The notes under the pieces: generated by a model
What the model was told of the DNA's origin: nothing
Databases searched by the model: none
What the model saw: only the letters and a program-made list of their open reading frames with translations
Shown: piece by piece, positions 1-23,673 of the stretch
Layout of the letters: each line of letters opens with the position of its first letter
Numbering within the stretch: the stretch's first letter is position 1
Translations under genes and position numbers: made by a program
DNA from: Candidatus Kapaibacterium sp.
GTDB taxonomy: Bacteria; Bacteroidota; Ignavibacteria; Kapaibacteriales; NICIL-2
Length of the DNA: 33,205 bases
Direction: 5' to 3'
NCBI GenBank assembly: GCA_016788605.1
Contig: JAEUSO010000006.1
Span: 1-33,205, forward strand

Positions 1-450
1 CGGCTGATATGCCATGCCCGGTACGCGAATAGCGGCATCGGGATTCAGGTTATGCCCGTAGTTGTAGTTCCACTGATAGAAATCCACCATTGACAAAATG
101 CCAAATATGATAAATGCGTATGTGGCAATGACAAGAAGAAACCGTTTTCCCGCCACTCCTGTAATACTGAACAATAACGCAAATGCAGCAAGAATATAGG
201 GCAGAATAGTGAACTCAATAAAGTCCTCGGTATGTAATGTCTTCATGCCAATATAGTGATTCAATCCATTGATAGTATTGACATCGCCCCCGATATTGTT
301 TGCCGATATAATGAGTGCCAACCCTTCGGGATACTGCGGAGCATCAAGCTCGATACGCCAGAGCGGAACAAAGATTGCAACTGCAATGAGCAGTCCGGCA
401 ATTATACTGAGGATACGTGACAACGGGGTTGTAGTAGCTGTATTTTTCAT
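1..450 (-). CDS. Nos-cluster membrane protein, partial (3' end off the window)
   Basis: Reading the minus strand from the ATG at 448-450 gives 150 residues with no stop before the window edge. The N-terminus (MKNTATTTPLSRILSIIAG) runs into a membrane segment at about residues 11-30. A soluble stretch follows containing DAPQYPEGL and INGLNHYIGMK, and then at least two more membrane segments at about 82-98 and 104-122. I recognise the DAPQYPEGL...GLNHYIGM signature as belonging to a membrane protein found downstream of nosZ in nos clusters of Bacteroidota and relatives, usually near nosL and nosDFY. Its biochemical role is not established; a part in copper delivery or NosZ maturation is inference from neighbourhood. 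It lies 135 bases after nosZ on the same strand, so it is probably cotranscribed. The rest of the nos operon should continue off the left edge. Confidence 0.8.
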   Translation of the reverse strand, partial: MKNTATTTPLSRILSIIAGLLIAVAIFVPLWRIELDAPQYPEGLALIISANNIGGDVNTINGLNHYIGMKTLHTEDFIEFTILPYILAAFALLFSITGVAGKRFLLVIATYAFIIFGILSMVDFYQWNYNYGHNLNPDAAIRVPGMAYQP

Positions 451-2643: not shown

Positions 2644-3123
2644 TTATTTCACACCATCGTTCTGGCGCATAAACTCAAATACTTGCCGTGCTTCATCATC
2701 CGAAAGATTCTGATTAGGCATACGCATAAGGCATACCTCAAGCTGTACCTGAAGTTCCGGGTCTTTACTAATCATCGGGTCTGGATTGGTAATAAAGTTC
2801 ATCAACCACTCCGGCTTACGGCGCGATGTGACTCCCTGCCACCCCGGACCGACAATCCGATCATCTTTCAGTGAATGACATGCCGCACATTTCACCTCAC
2901 GAACTTCAGCACCCGCTTTTGCCATTGCAACATCAAGGGTAGCTCCCACTTTCACATTCTCGGCAGTAAATTTCCCCTCGCCACGGTGCGGGTCATATTG
3001 ATTTGGATCTTTCTTTTCTACGTCGTTCTTCTGTGCACTCTGTGTATCGGTTTTGGGCGAATCGCCGCATGAACCAAGAAAAATCAGGAATGAGAAGAAT
3101 CCTGCAATGACTATTGCTCTCAT
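2644..3123 (-). CDS. Cytochrome c lipoprotein, likely electron donor to NosZ
   Basis: A 159-residue exported monoheme cytochrome. The chosen ATG at 3123 starts MRAIVIAGFFSFLIFLGSC, a lipoprotein signal peptide whose lipobox cysteine is residue 19. A longer frame upstream adds residues without signal character. After a charged linker rich in Asp and Lys comes the single heme site CAACH, then GPGWQGV, and near the end MRMPNQNLSDDEA, which supplies a probable Met axial ligand. It is first in the nos operon, 57 bases before nosZ. That position fits the NosC-type or donor cytochromes that feed electrons to clade II NosZ; the exact partner is inference. Anchoring to a membrane by lipidation would place it beside lipoprotein NosZ. 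Confidence 0.9.
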   Translation of the reverse strand: MRAIVIAGFFSFLIFLGSCGDSPKTDTQSAQKNDVEKKDPNQYDPHRGEGKFTAENVKVGATLDVAMAKAGAEVREVKCAACHSLKDDRIVGPGWQGVTSRRKPEWLMNFITNPDPMISKDPELQVQLEVCLMRMPNQNLSDDEARQVFEFMRQNDGVK

Positions 3124-3186
3124 AATTGTTTGTGTGTTACGGTAAAACAGTTTTTCTACTGCGAAATTCAGTTGAAGAGCAATCAT

Positions 3187-3205
3187 TGATTTATGACTCA
3201 AATCA
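3187..3205. promoter_or_regulatory. Inverted repeat in the divergent nos / Cys-protein promoter region
   Basis: TGATTT (3187-3192) and AAATCA (3200-3205) form a perfect 6-base inverted repeat with a 7-base spacer. It lies about 65 bases upstream of the cytochrome c start and about 85 bases before the divergent Cys-rich gene. The arms resemble CRP/FNR-family half-sites, but the spacing does not fit the canonical TTGAT-N4-ATCAA box, so the regulator is unknown. Confidence 0.35.
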
Positions 3206-3289
3206 TATAATCAAAAAAAAGAAAAGCATATCTTTGTTCCACGTAATCATGCGTAATCACGCTCATAACAACGTTACAATTACTCTCCT

Positions 3290-3745
3290 TTGTCACCCAA
3301 AGCAGTACATATCGAGCATATATCATTTGCACTTGGTCAGGATAGTCGGGAACGGTGGATTCGCTTTGCTGCCATACTCACATTCATCACGATGCTTGTG
3401 CATGTGCATACATCGCTCATCGTATGGTCATGGTATTGGCTTGATAACGGAAGAACGGCAACACAATATTGCGTGAACACCGAATCGGATTGTTGTAAAG
3501 GAAAATGCTACGTTACAACGGCACTTGAAAAAAGTGAGGATGGTTCCAACTCAACCACTCCGTCGCAAGCGGGACAAAAACCGACTCAAAAAAATGAACG
3601 CGAAGTGCCGTACATAAAACAACCGTACAGCTTTTTCATAGCAACGTTGTATTATAGTCCATCTCGAATGTACGATATATACAAAGGTGAACTTCTACAT
3701 GGATATACACATATACCGACGAAACCACCTGAATCATGCTCATAA
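3290..3745 (+). CDS. Small Cys-rich membrane protein, possibly copper-related
   Basis: The open frame has no in-frame ATG before 3395. The TTG at 3290 is my tentative start because starting at 3395 would cut the hydrophobic segment. That segment (RFAAILTFITMLVHVHTSL, about residues 25-50) is followed by a cysteine cluster, QYCVNTESDCCKGKCY, and a Ser/Thr/Gln/Lys-rich tail. I recognise the CxN...CCxGKCY pattern from small uncharacterised Bacteroidota proteins with one N-terminal membrane helix and a short Cys motif after it. Function is not established. Because it is divergent from nosZ and upstream of mbnP/mbnH on the same strand, metal (copper) handling is a reasonable inference. It is separated from mbnP by 239 bases containing a strong hairpin, so it may be its own transcription unit. 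Confidence 0.6.
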   Translation: MSPKAVHIEHISFALGQDSRERWIRFAAILTFITMLVHVHTSLIVWSWYWLDNGRTATQYCVNTESDCCKGKCYVTTALEKSEDGSNSTTPSQAGQKPTQKNEREVPYIKQPYSFFIATLYYSPSRMYDIYKGELLHGYTHIPTKPPESCS

Positions 3746-3832
3746 GATATTGAGGTAGTGTGCGCTTTCCTGAACATCACAATAGTGTCAGTTTAATACA
3801 TTACAATCAGAGTTAGGTACACTATGTCAATA

Positions 3833-3854
3833 CCCCGAAAGATTTGTTTCGGGG
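3833..3854 (+). other. Perfect 8-bp hairpin upstream of mbnP
   Basis: CCCCGAAA at 3833-3840 pairs perfectly with TTTCGGGG at 3847-3854 around a 6-base loop. It lies 88 bases after the Cys-rich gene and about 130 bases before mbnP. No U-run follows on the plus strand, so an intrinsic terminator is doubtful. It could be an mRNA 3'-end structure for the upstream gene or a leader element for mbnP. The rest of 3746-3984 shows no open frame with coding character. Confidence 0.35.
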
Positions 3855-3984
3855 AATGAGACATGTTGGCTTATTACAACATAAATATATCATCAGGATA
3901 CCGTCATATCTACGCATAACCCGTACGGTGGCAACACGTATTGGCGCATCCTACTTCACAACATTACATTCTCATTTAATCACT

Positions 3985-4791
3985 ATGAAACATCAACTAA
4001 ACATACTCAAGCTCATCATACTCATTGCTATAATATCCGCCGTTATAACCGGATGCTCAAAAGAAACTCCGGTTTCCGCACCTGACCCAACTACAACGGG
4101 GTCGATTGTCTTGGAGTTCGATAATATCGCAGGTGACAGGCAATTAGAACTTAACAGCACAGTGCCATACCAGAACGCACTTGGAGAGAAGTTTTCCGTT
4201 ACAACGTTCTCGTATTACATCAGTAATATCAAGCTCCAAACTGCAACAGGCGAGACCTATACCGTACCGCAAGACAGTAGCTATTTTTTGATAAAAGAGA
4301 GCGACGCCGCCTCACAAAAAATCACATTACGCAATGTTCCTTCCTTAGATTATACCAGTGTTTCATTTACCATAGGTGTTGATAGTATCCGCAACACGAT
4401 GGATATTGCAAAACGCACCGGCGTTCTCGACCCCGCAAACGGTATGTATTGGTCATGGAATTCAGGATACATCTTTGTAAAAGCAGAAGGATCAAGTGCC
4501 TCAAGTAGCAACGGTTCATTCCGTTATCATATAGGTGGTTTCGGTGGTATCACATCACAAACAATCAATAACATCAAATCAATTATAGTTCCGTTTGGAA
4601 ATAGCGCTGCAACAGTGCGCCCTACGGTAAAACCGGAAGTCCACTTGTTGGTTGATGTATTAAAGATATTCAACGGTACGGCGAACGTAAGTATAACGTC
4701 AAATCCGACCGTGATGTTCACTCCATACTCTACAACTATTGCTAACAATTACAGGGGAATGTTCTCGGTGGATCATGTTCACAATGATTAA
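3985..4791 (+). CDS. mbnP: MbnP-like copper-binding lipoprotein
   Basis: 268 residues. The ATG at 3985 begins MKHQLNILKLIILIAIISAV, a lipoprotein signal ending ITGC. Mature-protein motifs match the MbnP family: SYYISNIKLQ near residue 80, SYFLIKE, the Trp-rich MYWSWNSGYIFVKAEG, FRYHIGGFGG, and a histidine-containing C-terminus VDHVHND. MbnP proteins were first described in methanobactin operons, where the partner heme enzyme MbnH oxidises a tryptophan to kynurenine and this enables copper(I) binding. Here the mbnH-like gene follows after 19 bases, so the pair is intact. No methanobactin biosynthesis genes are visible, as is common for MbnP/MbnH pairs outside methanotrophs. The copper role in this organism is inferred from the family and from the divergent nosZ. 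Confidence 0.88.
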   Translation: MKHQLNILKLIILIAIISAVITGCSKETPVSAPDPTTTGSIVLEFDNIAGDRQLELNSTVPYQNALGEKFSVTTFSYYISNIKLQTATGETYTVPQDSSYFLIKESDAASQKITLRNVPSLDYTSVSFTIGVDSIRNTMDIAKRTGVLDPANGMYWSWNSGYIFVKAEGSSASSSNGSFRYHIGGFGGITSQTINNIKSIIVPFGNSAATVRPTVKPEVHLLVDVLKIFNGTANVSITSNPTVMFTPYSTTIANNYRGMFSVDHVHND

Positions 4792-4810
4792 CACTTTACA
4801 TGGAGTATGT

Positions 4811-5920
4811 ATGAAAACAAAACTTCAATATAGCTCTCTTACTTTGATGCCCGCGCAATGCGTGCGGGCATCAGCGGTTGTGTTACGGGTATGTACACTA
4901 ATCCTTTGCTCAGTGCTCTTGGTTTCATGCTCGGACTCTGTACAGAATACTCTTGATACACCAACGGATGTACGCTTAGCCGTACCTTCGAATTTCCCGC
5001 CAATACGATACAACCTTGCCGCTAATCAAATCAGTACCGATGGATTCATCTTGGGAAGAACCCTATTTTACGATGGTACACTTTCCCGTGATGGAACAGT
5101 GAGTTGCGGCTCTTGTCATCAGCAATCATCAGCATTTACGCATCATGGTCATGACCTTAGTCACGGTATTGACGACAAATTGGGAAATCGTAATTCACCA
5201 CCGGTGATGAACCTTGCATGGCAACCGCACTTTTTTTGGGATGGTGGTGTGCATGATTTGGATTTATTCTCTATTGCGCCGATTGAGAATCCGGTGGAAA
5301 TGGACGAGAAGTTAGACAACGTCTTGGCTAAACTCCGCTCATCGCCGAAGTACCGCTCTCTTTTTGCTAAGGCATTCGGCTCGGAAGACATCTCAACAAG
5401 TAGATTTCTAAAAGCACTTTCGCAGTTCATGCTGATGTGTGTGTCGTCGCAATCGCGGTACGATTCCTTTGTTCGTCATGAAGGTGCGGTTTTATCAGAA
5501 CGCGAGCGTTTGGGTCGTACACTCTTTTCCCAAAAATGCGGCGCGTGTCACTCTACCGACCTCTTCACCGATTTCTCGTTCAGAAATAATGGTTTAGAGC
5601 AACGCACACCTTTTGATAGCGGTCGCGCCCGTATTACGTTACAGCATGAAGATATTGGCAAATTCAAAGTGCCGAGTGTTCGCAACATAGCTCTGACGGC
5701 TCCTTACATGCACGATGGTCGAATCCGCACATTGGAAGGTGTTCTGAACCATTACCGTTTTGGTATGAAAGTCACTCCTAACATTGATTCATTCTTCATA
5801 CGGCAGGGTAAGAATCCCGGGATTGACATGACAGACAACGAAGCTCAACTCATAATTGAGTTCTTGCATACCCTGACAGATACCGACTTCACTACACGAA
5901 GAATTTTATCGGAGCAATAA
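4811..5920 (+). CDS. mbnH: MbnH-like di-heme peroxidase (MauG/CcpA family)
   Basis: 369 residues. The ATG at 4811 is preceded by GGAG five bases upstream, which decides it over an in-frame ATG at 4739 that overlaps mbnP. A signal peptide with a probable lipobox (LLVSC) is followed by RTLFYDGTLSRDGTVSCGSCHQQ, the first CxxCH heme site. The second heme site is LFSQKCGACHSTDLFTDF, with the family motifs FSFRNNGL, KVPSVRNIALTAPYMHDGR and LEGVLNHY. This is the bacterial cytochrome c peroxidase/MauG fold. Coupling with mbnP points to MbnH, which uses a high-valent di-iron state to modify a Trp of MbnP rather than simply removing peroxide. A plain CcpA-type peroxidase is the alternative. The next gene starts one base after its stop, so the two are translationally linked. 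Confidence 0.88.
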   Translation: MKTKLQYSSLTLMPAQCVRASAVVLRVCTLILCSVLLVSCSDSVQNTLDTPTDVRLAVPSNFPPIRYNLAANQISTDGFILGRTLFYDGTLSRDGTVSCGSCHQQSSAFTHHGHDLSHGIDDKLGNRNSPPVMNLAWQPHFFWDGGVHDLDLFSIAPIENPVEMDEKLDNVLAKLRSSPKYRSLFAKAFGSEDISTSRFLKALSQFMLMCVSSQSRYDSFVRHEGAVLSERERLGRTLFSQKCGACHSTDLFTDFSFRNNGLEQRTPFDSGRARITLQHEDIGKFKVPSVRNIALTAPYMHDGRIRTLEGVLNHYRFGMKVTPNIDSFFIRQGKNPGIDMTDNEAQLIIEFLHTLTDTDFTTRRILSEQ

Positions 5921-5921
5921 C

Positions 5922-6854
5922 ATGAAAAATCTATTCCGGCTCATCATAGTTTCTATCTTTTTACACTCGCAGGTATATGCGTGTGAAATATGTGGTTGTG
6001 GTGCAGGTTCGTTGACTCAAGGTATATTGCCTCAAGGGGGGACAAATTTTGTCGGTGTGCGGTATCGTTCATCAGCGTTCGATTCTCACGTATTGCACAG
6101 TGCCTCTTTACGAACAAGCGAGCATTTTCAGACAACAGAATTTTGGGGACGATACTATCTATCGCCTTCGCTTCAGATTGTGGTTACATTACCGTATAAC
6201 ATCAATTCGCAACGCACAAGCACGCAAGAGTTCATTCGACGAGGTCTTGGTGATGCTTCGCTTACAGCACTTTATTCAGCATGGGTATCGCAACCTCAAA
6301 GCAGTAACGATACGGTCTGTTCAGTTCCGGCGATCACCCACGCTCTTCTTATTGGCGGTGGACTTAAAATCCCCACAGGTTCGTATCAATTCAATCCATA
6401 TTCTACAACCGAAGTTGCAAATGCCAACTTTCAACTTGGTACGGGTAGTTGGGATATACTCATCAGTGGAAATTATACTATCCGAGGTGAAGTGTATGGA
6501 GCAATGGTTGATGTGCAAGCCCGTATTCCCACGGTGAACTCCAACGGCTACCGTTTCGGTAATCGCGCAATGACAACGTTTGCAGGGTTTGCTTTACTCT
6601 CGCTTAGTAGCGATATCCGTATGATGCCACTTGTTGGAATAAGTTCGGAAATCAGTATGCAAGATATACGGCAAAACAAGACGGTTGCTGAAACAGGAGG
6701 AGTTACCGGATTTGCACTATTGGGTACGGACATCTATTTCATGAACACATTAAGCATCGGATGTACTGTATCAATTCCAGTTGCATCACAGATGGCAGAT
6801 GGCGAGATACGCCCGGCACCACGGGTAACGATTCAAAGCGCGTGGTTGTGGTAA
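5922..6854 (+). CDS. Secreted beta-barrel-like protein with N-terminal CEICGCG cluster
   Basis: 310 residues; ATG at 5922 with GGAG upstream inside the end of mbnH. A signal peptide (MKNLFRLIIVSIFLHSQVYA) is followed immediately by CEICGCGAGS. The remainder is rich in alternating aromatic/hydrophobic stretches typical of outer-membrane strands: VGVRYRSSAF, EFWGRYYLSP, GLGDASLTALYSAW, LLIGGGLKIPTGSY, GTGSWDILISGNY, and a terminal aromatic (AWLW). I recognise a conserved but uncharacterised Bacteroidota family with this CxxCxC start and barrel body, found beside MbnP/MauG-type genes. The Cys cluster at the mature N-terminus could bind metal, or its first Cys could be lipidated (the VYAC site is a poor lipobox). 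A copper-transit role through the outer membrane is inference. Confidence 0.75.
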   Translation: MKNLFRLIIVSIFLHSQVYACEICGCGAGSLTQGILPQGGTNFVGVRYRSSAFDSHVLHSASLRTSEHFQTTEFWGRYYLSPSLQIVVTLPYNINSQRTSTQEFIRRGLGDASLTALYSAWVSQPQSSNDTVCSVPAITHALLIGGGLKIPTGSYQFNPYSTTEVANANFQLGTGSWDILISGNYTIRGEVYGAMVDVQARIPTVNSNGYRFGNRAMTTFAGFALLSLSSDIRMMPLVGISSEISMQDIRQNKTVAETGGVTGFALLGTDIYFMNTLSIGCTVSIPVASQMADGEIRPAPRVTIQSAWLW

Positions 6855-19238: not shown

Positions 19239-20471
19239 TTACATTGATGATATTAATGTGGAACGGGTACTTCTATATGCGCCGGCAGATGTCTGAACAC
19301 TATCCGTCATAGCATGTGCAATGTCATCCAAATGCAGAATGTCGTTTGCCGTTCCTTCATCAATCACAGCACGCGGCATTCCATACACAACACATGATTC
19401 TGCATTCTGTGCAATAACATACGCACCCGCTTGCGAGAGTTTCTTGAAACCATCCGCACCGTCGCGCCCCATACCTGTCATCATCACAGCAAGTACATTA
19501 CCGCCATAGACGGCATGTACACTTGATGCAAGAACATCCACCGACGGCTTATAGAGCGATGCTCGCGGTTCCGTTGAGATATGTACTGTTTTCTGGCGCG
19601 TTACGGTCATCTGCATACCACCCGGAGCAATATAGACCGTACCTGCATTGAGCAATTCACCGTCTTCGGCTTCCTTTACCCGCAGACGTGCTATTGAGTC
19701 AAGCCGGTTGGCGAGCGATGCGGTGAACTTCGACGGCATGTGCTGCACAATAATAATCGGCATGGGAAAATCCGCAGGCAGGTCGGGTATCACTTTTTGT
19801 AATGACAGCGGTCCGCCGGTCGAGACACCGATAATTGCTATCTGAGCGTCCGTCTTAGCAGGTCGCTTTCGCAGAAGATCGGCATCATGCACGGACTTCT
19901 GAAGCGACGGTTGCACCGGAGTTGGTTGCATCGGTGCAGTGTGTTCCACCCTGATTGCAAGCGATGGTGAAGGAGTATCTGCCACAGAGCCGGAATTAGA
20001 CGCAGAAACAATATGATTACCATTGTTCCGCAGCAACTTTTGCCGCGTCAGAACATTTCGGAATTCTGTATTGCGTGCAAGTTCTAAAATCTTTGCTGTT
20101 ATATCGTCACGAAGCGTTGCTAACACTGCCGAATTATACGAAGAGTTCTTCAAGACAAAATCAACAGCCCCGTTCGTTAGGGCATCTATTGTGACTTGCG
20201 AACCCTCGGTGGTATGCGTACTGATTACCAAGATAGGTGTGGGGCATACCTCCATGATTATCCGTGTTGCGTCAATGCCATTCATCACAGGCATTTCAAT
20301 ATCCATTGTCACAATGTCGGGTTTCAATGCACAGGTCTTCTCAACGGCTTCTTTGCCATTCAGTGCAGTCCCGACTACTTCGATGTCAGGACATGATTCG
20401 AGCATCTTCTGCAACGTGCGGAGGATGAACACCGAATCATCTACGATGAGGACTTTGACGGTGGATGCCAT
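19239..20471 (-). CDS. cheB: Chemotaxis protein-glutamate methylesterase CheB
   Basis: 410 residues. The N-terminal receiver has DD at 11-12, phosphoacceptor Asp57 (TMDIEMPVMNG) and Thr/Ser switch region LVISTHT. A Gln/Pro/Ser-rich linker of about 60 residues follows. The C-terminal methylesterase domain holds the catalytic triad: Ser217 (GVSTGG), His244 (VQHMPSKFT) and Asp337 (MTGMGRDG). The enzyme removes methyl groups from chemoreceptors or deamidates them, resetting sensitivity after phosphorylation by CheA. Oddity: the receiver motif usually KPS reads KNSS (VLKNSS). No CheR methyltransferase or receptor gene is in the window, so the partner genes lie elsewhere. It follows cheA by 72 bases. 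Confidence 0.96.
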   Translation of the reverse strand: MASTVKVLIVDDSVFILRTLQKMLESCPDIEVVGTALNGKEAVEKTCALKPDIVTMDIEMPVMNGIDATRIIMEVCPTPILVISTHTTEGSQVTIDALTNGAVDFVLKNSSYNSAVLATLRDDITAKILELARNTEFRNVLTRQKLLRNNGNHIVSASNSGSVADTPSPSLAIRVEHTAPMQPTPVQPSLQKSVHDADLLRKRPAKTDAQIAIIGVSTGGPLSLQKVIPDLPADFPMPIIIVQHMPSKFTASLANRLDSIARLRVKEAEDGELLNAGTVYIAPGGMQMTVTRQKTVHISTEPRASLYKPSVDVLASSVHAVYGGNVLAVMMTGMGRDGADGFKKLSQAGAYVIAQNAESCVVYGMPRAVIDEGTANDILHLDDIAHAMTDSVQTSAGAYRSTRSTLISSM

Positions 20472-20543
20472 AGATGTTTCTTTCGTTGTTGTGGATTAGT
20501 TATATACCGTGTGATTATCACGTGTTCGACTGAGCATTAGAGA

Positions 20544-22508
20544 TTATACCAACACTTCGCTACGTTCGCTATACGTATTGCGGATACCATCCATAAGCTC
20601 AGGCACATCAACAATCATCACCACTGTACCGTCGCCAAGTATTGTGGAGCCGGTAATACCGTGGATATGACCTAAGTACGAGCCGAGTGATTTGATGACG
20701 ATTTCCTGCTGACCAAGCAACTCGTCCACCACAAGCCCCACCGATGTTTCGCCAATACCGACTACAACGATGTACTTGTTTGCAAACTGTTTATTGTCAT
20801 TGCCGGCAGCAGTGCCAAGCGTGGTACCAAGCTCAAGCAAGGGCAGTACTTTTTCGCGGATGCGAACAACGGGCTTTTGATTAACTGTATGGATATGGTC
20901 GCAGTCCACACCAACAACTTCAACAACCGAACCAAGCGGAACAGTGTATGTTTCGTTATGAACTTTAACCAACAGCCCTTGAATAATGGCTAGCGTAAGC
21001 GGCAGCTTGATTGTGAATATGGAACCGCGCCCCTTTACGGAGTCAATATCCACAACACCTTTCAACTTTTGGATATTCGTCCGCACAACGTCCATACCCA
21101 CACCGCGCCCGCTGATATTCGATACTGTCTGCGCGGTTGAAAAACCGGGTGCAAAAATCAAATGGAACGCTTCACGGTCGCTCATATTTGCTGCTTGTTC
21201 AGGTGTGATAACACCTTTTTCAAGTGCTTTTGCTTTCAACTTTTCGGGATCCATTCCCTTGCCGTCGTCTTTGATGCGGATGATAATGTTGTTCCCTTCT
21301 TGCTCCGCACTCAGTTGGACTTTTCCTTTACGGAGTTTACCGGAGTCCAGACGCTCTTGGGGTGGCTCGATACCGTGGTCGCATGCATTGCGAATCATGT
21401 GTACAAGCGGGTCGTTCAATTCTTCGATGATGGTGCGGTCGAGCTCCGTTTCCTCGCCCGTAAGCTCAAGCTCGATTTCCTTACCAATTTCGCGGCTGAT
21501 GTCGCGCACGATACGCGGCGCTTTCTGAAACAGTTTTGAAATCGGCACCATTCGCATCCGCATCACACTTGTCTGGATTTCCGATGTGATGTAGTCCACC
21601 TGTTCGGCGGTTTCAAGCAGGTCGCGCACAAGATCGTTATTGTCGAATACCTCGTGAAGTTTGGATGCAATCTGTTGCAGGCGGTTTCTGCCAAGAACTA
21701 ATTCACCGCTCAAATTCATCAGTGTTTCCACGCGCCCCACGTCCACTCGGATTGTTGTGTCGGCGGCGGGTGCTTGCTTTGCTACGGGTTCAGATTTTTG
21801 TGGCGACGCCGATTTAGTTTCCACAGGTCTATCGGCTGCTACCGGTGCTTTAAAATCCGCCTTCGGTTGTTGCGGTTGGGCAGTAGAAGGAGTGGTTTGA
21901 TCGGCTGTTGCGCTTAATGCAGAACTAACGGAAAAACCGCTGTTGATTTGTGCGAACGCCGCTTGCAACGCAGCTTCTTCATCATCGCTGAATGTATCGC
22001 CGTCGCTTTTGCCAAACTCGGGATTATTGATAATGGAACCGATTGCATCGGATGACGCTACATGTACAGGTGCGCTGCTTGCACCCGATACCGCGTTCAC
22101 TCCGCCACCTTGCAGGATTGCCGCGATTTTTCCGGCAGTAACGCCGAAGTCCACTGTTGCGTTGTCGCCGCTTTCGATATTCTCCATCAGCAACACAACC
22201 CAGTCGTACACTTCAAGCAAAACATCAATCACATCTTGATTTACCTGTAGCTCCGACTTTCGGAGTTTGTTCAACAGGTCTTCGCCTTTGTGGGTGATTG
22301 TCTGGATGTTCTCGAATCCCATAAATCCCGCCGTGCCTTTAATCGTATGCACGCAACGGAAAATCCGGTTGAGTAAATCAAGATCGTCGGGTTGCTGTTC
22401 AAGCAGCATTAAATCGCCTGAAAGAACATCGAGCAACTCGCGTGTTTCCACAACGAAGCTATCATAAATCTCCTTCATTTCACCGCTTGAAAAACCTTCT
22501 ACCGACAT
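20544..22508 (-). CDS. cheA: Chemotaxis histidine kinase CheA
   Basis: 654 residues; GGAGG at 22514-22518 precedes the ATG. P1 (HPt) domain has phosphoacceptor His54 (FRCVHTIKGTAGFMGF). A long low-complexity linker (about 130-255, rich in Ala, Ser, Pro and Gln) stands where a P2 domain would be; I see no clear P2. The P3 dimerisation helices start near 258 (RVETLMNLSGELVLGRNRL). The P4 kinase domain shows the N-box (VHMIRNACDHGIEPP), DDGKGMD and SGRGVGMDVVRTNI. The P5 CheW-like domain begins near IQGLLVKVHNETYTVPLGSV and ends close to the C-terminus. It phosphorylates CheY and CheB in response to receptor arrays. A free-standing CheW gene is absent from this operon. Confidence 0.97.
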   Translation of the reverse strand: MSVEGFSSGEMKEIYDSFVVETRELLDVLSGDLMLLEQQPDDLDLLNRIFRCVHTIKGTAGFMGFENIQTITHKGEDLLNKLRKSELQVNQDVIDVLLEVYDWVVLLMENIESGDNATVDFGVTAGKIAAILQGGGVNAVSGASSAPVHVASSDAIGSIINNPEFGKSDGDTFSDDEEAALQAAFAQINSGFSVSSALSATADQTTPSTAQPQQPKADFKAPVAADRPVETKSASPQKSEPVAKQAPAADTTIRVDVGRVETLMNLSGELVLGRNRLQQIASKLHEVFDNNDLVRDLLETAEQVDYITSEIQTSVMRMRMVPISKLFQKAPRIVRDISREIGKEIELELTGEETELDRTIIEELNDPLVHMIRNACDHGIEPPQERLDSGKLRKGKVQLSAEQEGNNIIIRIKDDGKGMDPEKLKAKALEKGVITPEQAANMSDREAFHLIFAPGFSTAQTVSNISGRGVGMDVVRTNIQKLKGVVDIDSVKGRGSIFTIKLPLTLAIIQGLLVKVHNETYTVPLGSVVEVVGVDCDHIHTVNQKPVVRIREKVLPLLELGTTLGTAAGNDNKQFANKYIVVVGIGETSVGLVVDELLGQQEIVIKSLGSYLGHIHGITGSTILGDGTVVMIVDVPELMDGIRNTYSERSEVLV

Positions 22509-22569
22509 TGTTTCCTCCTTGATTGCCGTATGTTATTGATTTAGTGTTTTTATCCTGTGCCGGATACCG

Positions 22570-23673
22570 TTACTTGAAGAGTGCGTCAATATCATCTTGC
22601 GATACTTCATCCATCGGATCTATCCCGTCATCGTGGATAGCCGTCGCAGATTCGGGCTGTGCGGATACTTGCATTGAAGCGAACAGAGCATCAATATCTG
22701 TAGTATCCACAGGGTCGTCAGCATCCAATTCAGTCAGAGCAGCAGCGGATGTTTCAACCGATACCTCAACCGGCGACGCACCCGAAACCGCATCATCAAC
22801 TTCCGGTATGTCAGCTTCATGAAGTGCAAGCGAATTTGAATGAAATGCGTTCAGTAAGTCATCCACTTGGTTTTGCCTGTCAAGTTTTGCCGAGCCAAGC
22901 GAATCAACCGCTTCGGGGTCGAAAGCAATCTCGCGGTGGAGAGTGCTTGAATTCGATGCCGATGAGCGTTGCAAATCTTCCGACGGCATATACTTGTTCG
23001 GTGCTGCCGGTGGCTGCGATTGCACACCGCCGACAATGATACCGACTTCCGAGTTTTGGATATATCCAAGAATGCCGTTCAGTTTTCCCTGAACTGTTTC
23101 AATCACATGATTCACTGCTGCGATTTGCTGCGTGGTAATATCCTGCACCTGAAGTGACAACATGATATTGTTTGTATCAGTGCGGACGCTTTCCATCACC
23201 GATTCGGAATTCGCAAAAAGGACGCTTGAGGTATCGTTGGATGATTCTTCATTTAAGATTGCCTCGATTTTTGTCAGGTACGGATTGCCCATCTGCCCGT
23301 TGCTCAGTCCGGCTTTTGCAATTTCTGCAACCGACGAGCAGGCATGTTGCAACGCATAATACCGTGTTTGCACATCCTTCATGTTTTGGTTCATCACATT
23401 CAGCTTATACGTCATGCCGTCTATGATGTCCATGATTTCGTTGGTGGCAAGCTCGGTTGCCTCCGTCACTTTCGAGAGTTGCTTCGACGCTTTGGGAATG
23501 CGCTTGAGGTTGTCCTGAATCGAGGTGTTGATTTCTTCGAGCGCGGGCGTTACTTCGCGGACGAATATGAAAAGCTCCTCAAGGAACGGGATAACACGTT
23601 GACCAAGCGTAAAGAGTGCTTTCAGCTCCTCGCTTTTCGTCAGCAGTACTTGTATGTCGCGGTCTTTAGCCAT
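22570..23673 (-). CDS. cheZ: CheZ-type CheY phosphatase with an extended C-terminal tail
   Basis: 367 residues, clearly longer than the 214 of E. coli CheZ. Residues 1-205 are long amphipathic helices. The catalytic motif is SLQVQDITTQQI, giving Asp178 and Gln182 with the four-residue spacing of the CheZ active pair (Asp143/Gln147 in E. coli). Residues 215-367 form a disordered acidic tail with three short repeats of one type: NQVDDLLNAF (268-277), DTTDIDALFASM (323-334) and VSQDDIDALFK at the very end. These resemble the C-terminal CheY-binding peptide of E. coli CheZ and the N-terminal CheY-binding peptide of FliM. The gene lies between cheY and cheA. Phosphatase function is family knowledge; multiple CheY docking is inference. 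Confidence 0.88.
   Translation of the reverse strand: MAKDRDIQVLLTKSEELKALFTLGQRVIPFLEELFIFVREVTPALEEINTSIQDNLKRIPKASKQLSKVTEATELATNEIMDIIDGMTYKLNVMNQNMKDVQTRYYALQHACSSVAEIAKAGLSNGQMGNPYLTKIEAILNEESSNDTSSVLFANSESVMESVRTDTNNIMLSLQVQDITTQQIAAVNHVIETVQGKLNGILGYIQNSEVGIIVGGVQSQPPAAPNKYMPSEDLQRSSASNSSTLHREIAFDPEAVDSLGSAKLDRQNQVDDLLNAFHSNSLALHEADIPEVDDAVSGASPVEVSVETSAAALTELDADDPVDTTDIDALFASMQVSAQPESATAIHDDGIDPMDEVSQDDIDALFK

Follow-up and report, generated by a model that had tools for sequence, protein, structure and literature searches.

A copper-acquisition cassette built around mbnP and mbnH appears to have been recruited into the nitrous oxide reductase (nos) regulon of Candidatus Kapaibacterium sp., where it stands back to back with cytochrome c–nosZ. 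The two lie within the 33,205-nucleotide stretch analysed here (the window), which is contig C573 of the source genome G000, a metagenome-assembled genome (MAG) of 606 contigs that is 91% complete. We read the cassette as a general Bacteroidota unit that is evolutionarily independent of nosZ and was drawn into the nos regulon in this genome, a reading to which we assign a probability of roughly 0.6. Because a shared anaerobic-type switch appears to turn both on, in G000 and in the distant genome G298, the data suggest that the cassette was borrowed to feed copper to NosZ. This explanation draws on what the sequence itself shows: which genes are present, their conserved ligands and predicted folds, the architecture of the promoter and the separate phylogenies. 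Every part named by an earlier annotation made from the letters alone (the sequence-only reading), namely the mbnP–mbnH pair, a CxGKC protein and a barrel divergent from cytochrome c–nosZ, is present in the window:

1–450, minus strand: membrane protein in the NosB position directly downstream of nosZ, with a homologue at the same place in relatives' nos loci; cut by the contig end
586–2610, minus strand: nosZ, Sec-type clade II nitrous oxide reductase (TIGR04246, 929 bits)
2644–3123, minus strand: cytochrome c lipoprotein (PF00034), first gene of the nos operon, which precedes nosZ in most relatives
3163–3170, minus strand: candidate −7 box toward nos, TGAATTTC, two mismatches to TAnnTTTG, spacing 21 from the palindrome
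3192–3207, no strand: Crp/Fnr-type palindrome TATGACTCAAATCATA between the two divergent units, of a type found ahead of Bacteroidia nos operons
3229–3236, plus strand: perfect Bacteroidota −7 box toward the cassette, TATCTTTG, 21 bases after the palindrome, at class II spacing
3290–3745, plus strand: CxGKC small membrane protein (C...CCKGKCY) with a TTG start and one apparent membrane helix, of a family known upstream of mbnP
3985–4791, plus strand: mbnP, MbnP-family lipoprotein (PF20243) with WxW (W156, W158) and H182
4811–5920, plus strand: mbnH, MbnH/MauG-like di-heme enzyme with two CxxCH motifs (CCP_MauG, 180 bits) and Tyr315 at the position of MauG Tyr294
5922–6854, plus strand: CEICGCG outer-membrane β-barrel with an N-terminal CxxCGC (C21, C24, C26) and FapF/COG4313 fold matches

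The case for recruitment starts from the promoter between the two operons. With at most one mismatch, the palindrome lies 57–133 bp upstream of the cytochrome c gene in 24 of 64 nos loci, mostly with TAnnTTTG, which we take to be the Bacteroidota −7 box consensus, about 21 bases further on; the generic Fnr motif TTGAT-N4-ATCAA had no match in the window. A scan of 171 loci (2.6 Mb) for the composite signature TATGA-N6-TCATA-N20-22-TAnnTTTG returned 15 perfect composites at spacings of 20–22 and none elsewhere in the tested range of 5–40. The composite stands upstream of nos in 16 of 54 loci (0.27 expected) and, allowing at most one mismatch, upstream of 6 of 87 trio cassettes (0.27 expected, P about 4 × 10−7). 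Three of the cassette composites are perfect, those of the window, of L201 in G298 and of L185. Only two perfect composites were found in G000, the one in the window and another that also lies in the nos island. On this promoter architecture, cassette and nos operon are quite probably co-regulated in G000.

In the Flavobacteriaceae-like genome G298, one palindrome (L201) carries perfect composites both ways, toward its own cassette and toward the Crp gene of the nos island. The G298 MbnH falls on a different branch of the tree from the window MbnH, and the recruitment of this phylogenetically distinct cassette therefore looks convergent. Genes behind the composite, named by eye, include nos, hemN, ScdA/Ric and a Crp gene as well as those for an NnrS-like protein, fasciclin-like proteins and regulators of the Rrf2 type, and are predicted to form an anaerobic or nitric oxide (NO)-type regulon. 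The cassette could on that account work for a different copper enzyme of anaerobic or respiratory metabolism, or for copper supply in general, and share the anaerobic regulator for that reason: the composite also precedes hemN-like, ScdA/Ric-like and other genes as well as cassettes in two nosZ-negative genomes (L314, L316), and the cassette is common without nosZ. The three perfect cassette composites and that of L143 (Chitinophaga niabensis), however, all belong to nosZ-positive genomes, and we regard service to another enzyme or to general supply as a real possibility that we nonetheless doubt.

The cassette and the nos operon have separate phylogenies. The window NosZ clears the TIGR04246 equivalog cut-off (929 versus 625 bits), is 78–83% identical to its nearest Bacteroidia relatives versus 64–70% to its own order, and sits among Bacteroidia in the tree, in a clade of 12 rows (support 99/95), while MbnH of the window clusters with UBA7675, a member of its own order (support 100/96); the nos operon carried by this Ignavibacteria-like genome therefore appears to be of Bacteroidia origin and horizontally acquired. 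Among plasmid records searched for NosZ, none exceeded 72% identity. Assembly chimerism at the nos/cassette junction seems improbable: G+C content runs on without a break, and the boxes facing both directions from the palindrome argue for a natural junction. The differing phylogenies would also suit a chance neighbourhood in which a Bacteroidia nos operon arrived next to a resident general copper cassette that keeps its own control. In a first survey none of the 12 further same-order genomes carrying both genes showed the adjacency, one pair lying at 11 kb in a larger survey, and MbnP has no genome-level association with nosZ, both of which favour that view. Against it stand the perfect cassette-side −7 box at exact class II spacing, for which the chance beside a given site is about 0.0017, and the independent parallel wiring in G298, so that chance neighbourhood seems unlikely to us.

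Further nos genes lie at the end of another contig of G000, C603 (locus L206), which carries nosL (cut), nosD, nosF and nosY together with globin, fasciclin-like and Crp-like genes; the set matches the nos island of G298, and from this gene content we infer that C573 joins C603. G000 thus holds the NosL/NosDFY copper route for NosZ. Neighbourhoods of nosZ in 20 same-order genomes read cytochrome c–nosZ–NosB-like–nosL–nosD–nosF–nosY, with no mbnPH among the neighbours; in clade II the gene that immediately follows nosZ is nosB (PMC11409646). Several nos islands (L092, L206, L217, L243, L201) also contain fasciclin-like lipoproteins, a number of which have their own Crp/Fnr-type composite promoter.

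A dedicated, general MbnPH–NosZ copper delivery system is contradicted by the genome surveys. Of 123 genomes of the order, 61 have nosZ, 47 MbnP and 21 both (23.3 expected); of 396 genomes of the phylum, 130 have nosZ, 96 have MbnP and 27 have both, where 31.5 would be expected (Fisher P 0.32). No nosZ was found in the flanks, inspected up to 10 kb, of 80 named cassette loci, nearly all from Bacteroidota, that were collected by an MbnP-alignment scan of 84,980 species genomes. Together with the nosZ neighbourhoods above, these counts leave a general MbnPH–nosZ link unsupported. Such a system could point to the adjacency in the window and to three of the 39 other genomes that carry both, where the genes lie at most 16 kb apart (about 11 kb in G298 and G435, 16 kb in G284), a weak signal (0.44 expected, P about 0.01). 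With the lack of excess co-occurrence, the empty flanks and the presence of NosL/NosDFY on the other side, we set the dedicated pair aside as highly improbable. The link to N2O reduction suggested by the sequence-only reading therefore fails in general; in this genome it is supported at the level of regulation.

Several points weigh against recruitment into the nos regulon. The nos-side −7 box is imperfect, two of the six promoter-bearing cassettes (L314 and L316, with one mismatch) lie in nosZ-negative genomes, and the regulator is a candidate only. Genomes with both MbnP and nosZ are no more frequent than chance predicts, and in the other nosZ-positive genomes examined the mbnP locus lies far from nosZ and lacks the composite promoter.

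The cassette proteins themselves point to copper handling. MbnP scores 193.5 bits against PF20243 (gathering cut-off 27) and 52.6 bits against TIGR04052, short of the equivalog cut-off of 140, although all 52 aligned members match the TIGR04052 model at E ≤ 0.001. W156 is conserved in 100% and W158 in 99% of 84 sequences, and H182 in 99–100%. Searches of PDB sequences with phmmer and profiles gave no match for MbnP; the fold search alone, run with an AlphaFold model (predicted local distance difference test (pLDDT) 94), found six matches at E ≤ 0.001, all of them chains of 7l6g (MbnP). MbnH likewise falls below its cut-off (209.9 versus 362.85 bits for TIGR04039), yet TIGR04039 is the best of all models. 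Its C99–H103, C243–H247 and Y315 are conserved in 100% of 78 sequences, and the stretch aligned to MauG ends at residue 315, matching MauG residue 294, which we take to be the heme ligand Tyr294. The best PDB match of MbnH is 6e1c ('Di-heme enzyme'), presumably MbnH itself. Since both proteins score below the NCBIfam equivalog cut-offs, we file them as a divergent Bacteroidota subfamily (MbnP within PF20243) rather than as the named equivalogs. For the barrel, the AlphaFold model (pLDDT 88) bears out the barrel-like reading made from sequence alone: the top 20 PDB fold matches are the outer-membrane channels FapF and COG4313, and C21, C24 and C26 are conserved at 96–100% in 67 sequences. The CxGKC protein matched a tick-salivary Pfam family below cut-off (E 0.0014), which was taken as chance.

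Among the named loci, which include Chitinophaga, Pedobacter, Runella, Dyadobacter, Spirosoma and other genera, mbnH is present in 77 of 80 and the barrel in 65 of 80, mostly in the same gene order, and the CxGKC protein lies upstream of mbnP in about 64 of 80; CxGKC–mbnP–mbnH–barrel is therefore a fixed four-gene cassette across Bacteroidota. The cassette of Chryseolinea serpens (L148) lacks an adjacent mbnH, and in its MbnP, the sole such case (n = 83–84), the second Trp of WxW is Lys; this single locus fits W158 being the MbnH substrate. Two further loci (L173, L199) show no mbnH in the fetched stretch and retain WxW. Tandem or extra mbnH-like di-heme genes adjoin mbnP in L077 (G008) and L076 (G012), and further MauG/CCP-type di-heme proteins are encoded on G000 contigs C144, C222 and C161. 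Elsewhere in the window, cheB, cheA and a CheZ-like gene stand in a row (19239–23673; chemotaxis-type).

By position, the cassette stands in the place that a NosA/OprC-type import module takes beside some related nos operons. In L212 (G084), a CxGKC gene, a YtkA-like lipoprotein gene and an OprC-like TonB receptor gene diverge from cytochrome c–nosZ across the same palindrome; in L243 (G320), CxGKC and an OprC-like receptor stand beside nos, one small cytochrome gene further off and with their own site; and in G026, a member of the order, CxGKC–YtkA–receptor follows nosY. At nos loci the CxGKC family adjoins OprC-like receptors in L087 as well as in L212 and L243. C-x3-M and H-x-M are invariant in 7 of 7 aligned receptors, and CxxxM with HxM forms the OprC copper site (PMC8610252); PDB sequence matches of the L226 receptor are to OprC only. 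OprC-like receptors and nosZ share 43 genomes (21.7 expected; 13 within 12 kb), and such receptors and MbnP share 32 (16 expected; 17 within 12 kb). Apparently, then, NosA/OprC-type and MbnPH-type copper modules interchange beside nos operons. In G000 no OprC-like receptor was found at E ≤ 1e-30 in the 91% complete MAG, and, as this MAG is fragmented, the absence may reflect incompleteness, which also counts against our reading. NosA was proposed to supply NosZ and a later nosA knockout had no effect (PMC8610252), so that supply of NosZ is unproven even for NosA. In 17 of the 396 genomes of the phylum (G230, G284, G273, G306, G310, G352 and others) a second MbnP type adjoins an OprC-like TonB receptor; the order in L202 is mbnP–mbnH–YtkA lipoprotein–receptor, apparently a copper-import operon independent of the CxGKC/barrel cassette.

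The WxW motif, the MbnP fold and the OprC-like neighbours in those 17 genomes uphold the copper-handling part of what the sequence-only reading had proposed, its copper route for NosZ failing as a general one, and we consider the cassette a general copper-handling unit, probably for acquisition. Detoxification by efflux or sequestration would be compatible with the Cys-rich motifs and the outer-membrane channel fold. It strikes us as improbable, given that MbnP genes adjoin OprC-like importers, that an anaerobic-type promoter is common to nos and cassette, and that methanotroph CorA is copper-repressible and MopE secreted under copper limitation (PMC3912023; PMC3423442; PMC3621798).

If the cassette does serve acquisition under the nos regulon, a Crp/Fnr-family regulator, for which the gene beside nosLDFY on C603 is a candidate, would bind the palindrome at 3192–3207 under low oxygen or nitrogen oxides and activate cytochrome c–nosZ and the cassette together. 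MbnP would be exported as a lipoprotein, and MbnH would oxidise a Trp of its WxW to kynurenine, completing the copper site. The CxxCGC barrel and the CxGKC protein may then move copper through the outer membrane and the periplasm, probably inward, and NosL/NosDFY would load NosZ from the enlarged copper pool. Whether NosZ in fact benefits we judge at about even odds. More tentatively, and in our view rather doubtful, the cassette with its CxxCGC channel may have taken over from the NosA/OprC-type receptor the regulated provision of copper for N2O respiration, in this lineage and convergently in G298, which would amount to kynurenine-based, methanobactin-free uptake induced with NosZ.

Several known systems share features with this arrangement. 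The gene pair, WxW, two CxxCH motifs and predicted fold are those of Methylosinus trichosporium MbnP/MbnH (TIGR04052/TIGR04039; 7l6g); the window pair differs in its scores below the equivalog cut-offs and in its fixed partners, the CxGKC protein and the CxxCGC barrel, and no methanobactin genes were seen in the window. MopE/SACCP and CorA/CorB of methanotrophs likewise set a kynurenine-site copper protein beside a di-heme peroxidase (PMC3621798; PMC3423442), but they are surface proteins and not markedly similar to MbnP in sequence (PMC3621798). NosA/OprC receptors share the nos-linked copper import, the divergent orientation to nos (G084, G320) and the CxGKC partner; unlike the cassette, they are TonB-gated and use a CxxxM–HxM site. 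FapF/COG4313 channels resemble the barrel in predicted fold (template modelling (TM) score about 0.6), but at 13–16% identity, and the window barrel has a three-Cys N-terminus and no amyloid operon was seen. As in Crp/Fnr control of nos by DNR, NnrR, FixK2 and HcpR, a palindromic activator site lies upstream of nos, but the window motif, TATGA-N6-TCATA with TAnnTTTG, is unlike the HcpR motifs TTGAC, TGTGA and GTAAC (PMC1274295).

NosZ, which requires copper, is the principal biological sink known for N2O, and Bacteroidota are rich in clade II N2O reducers; to our knowledge, copper transit across their outer membrane is poorly known. The present analysis yields a testable promoter signature and a four-gene cassette with conserved ligands. 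For MbnP and MbnH, which have been called 'mysterious partners' (PMC3621798), it suggests a role outside methanobactin systems.

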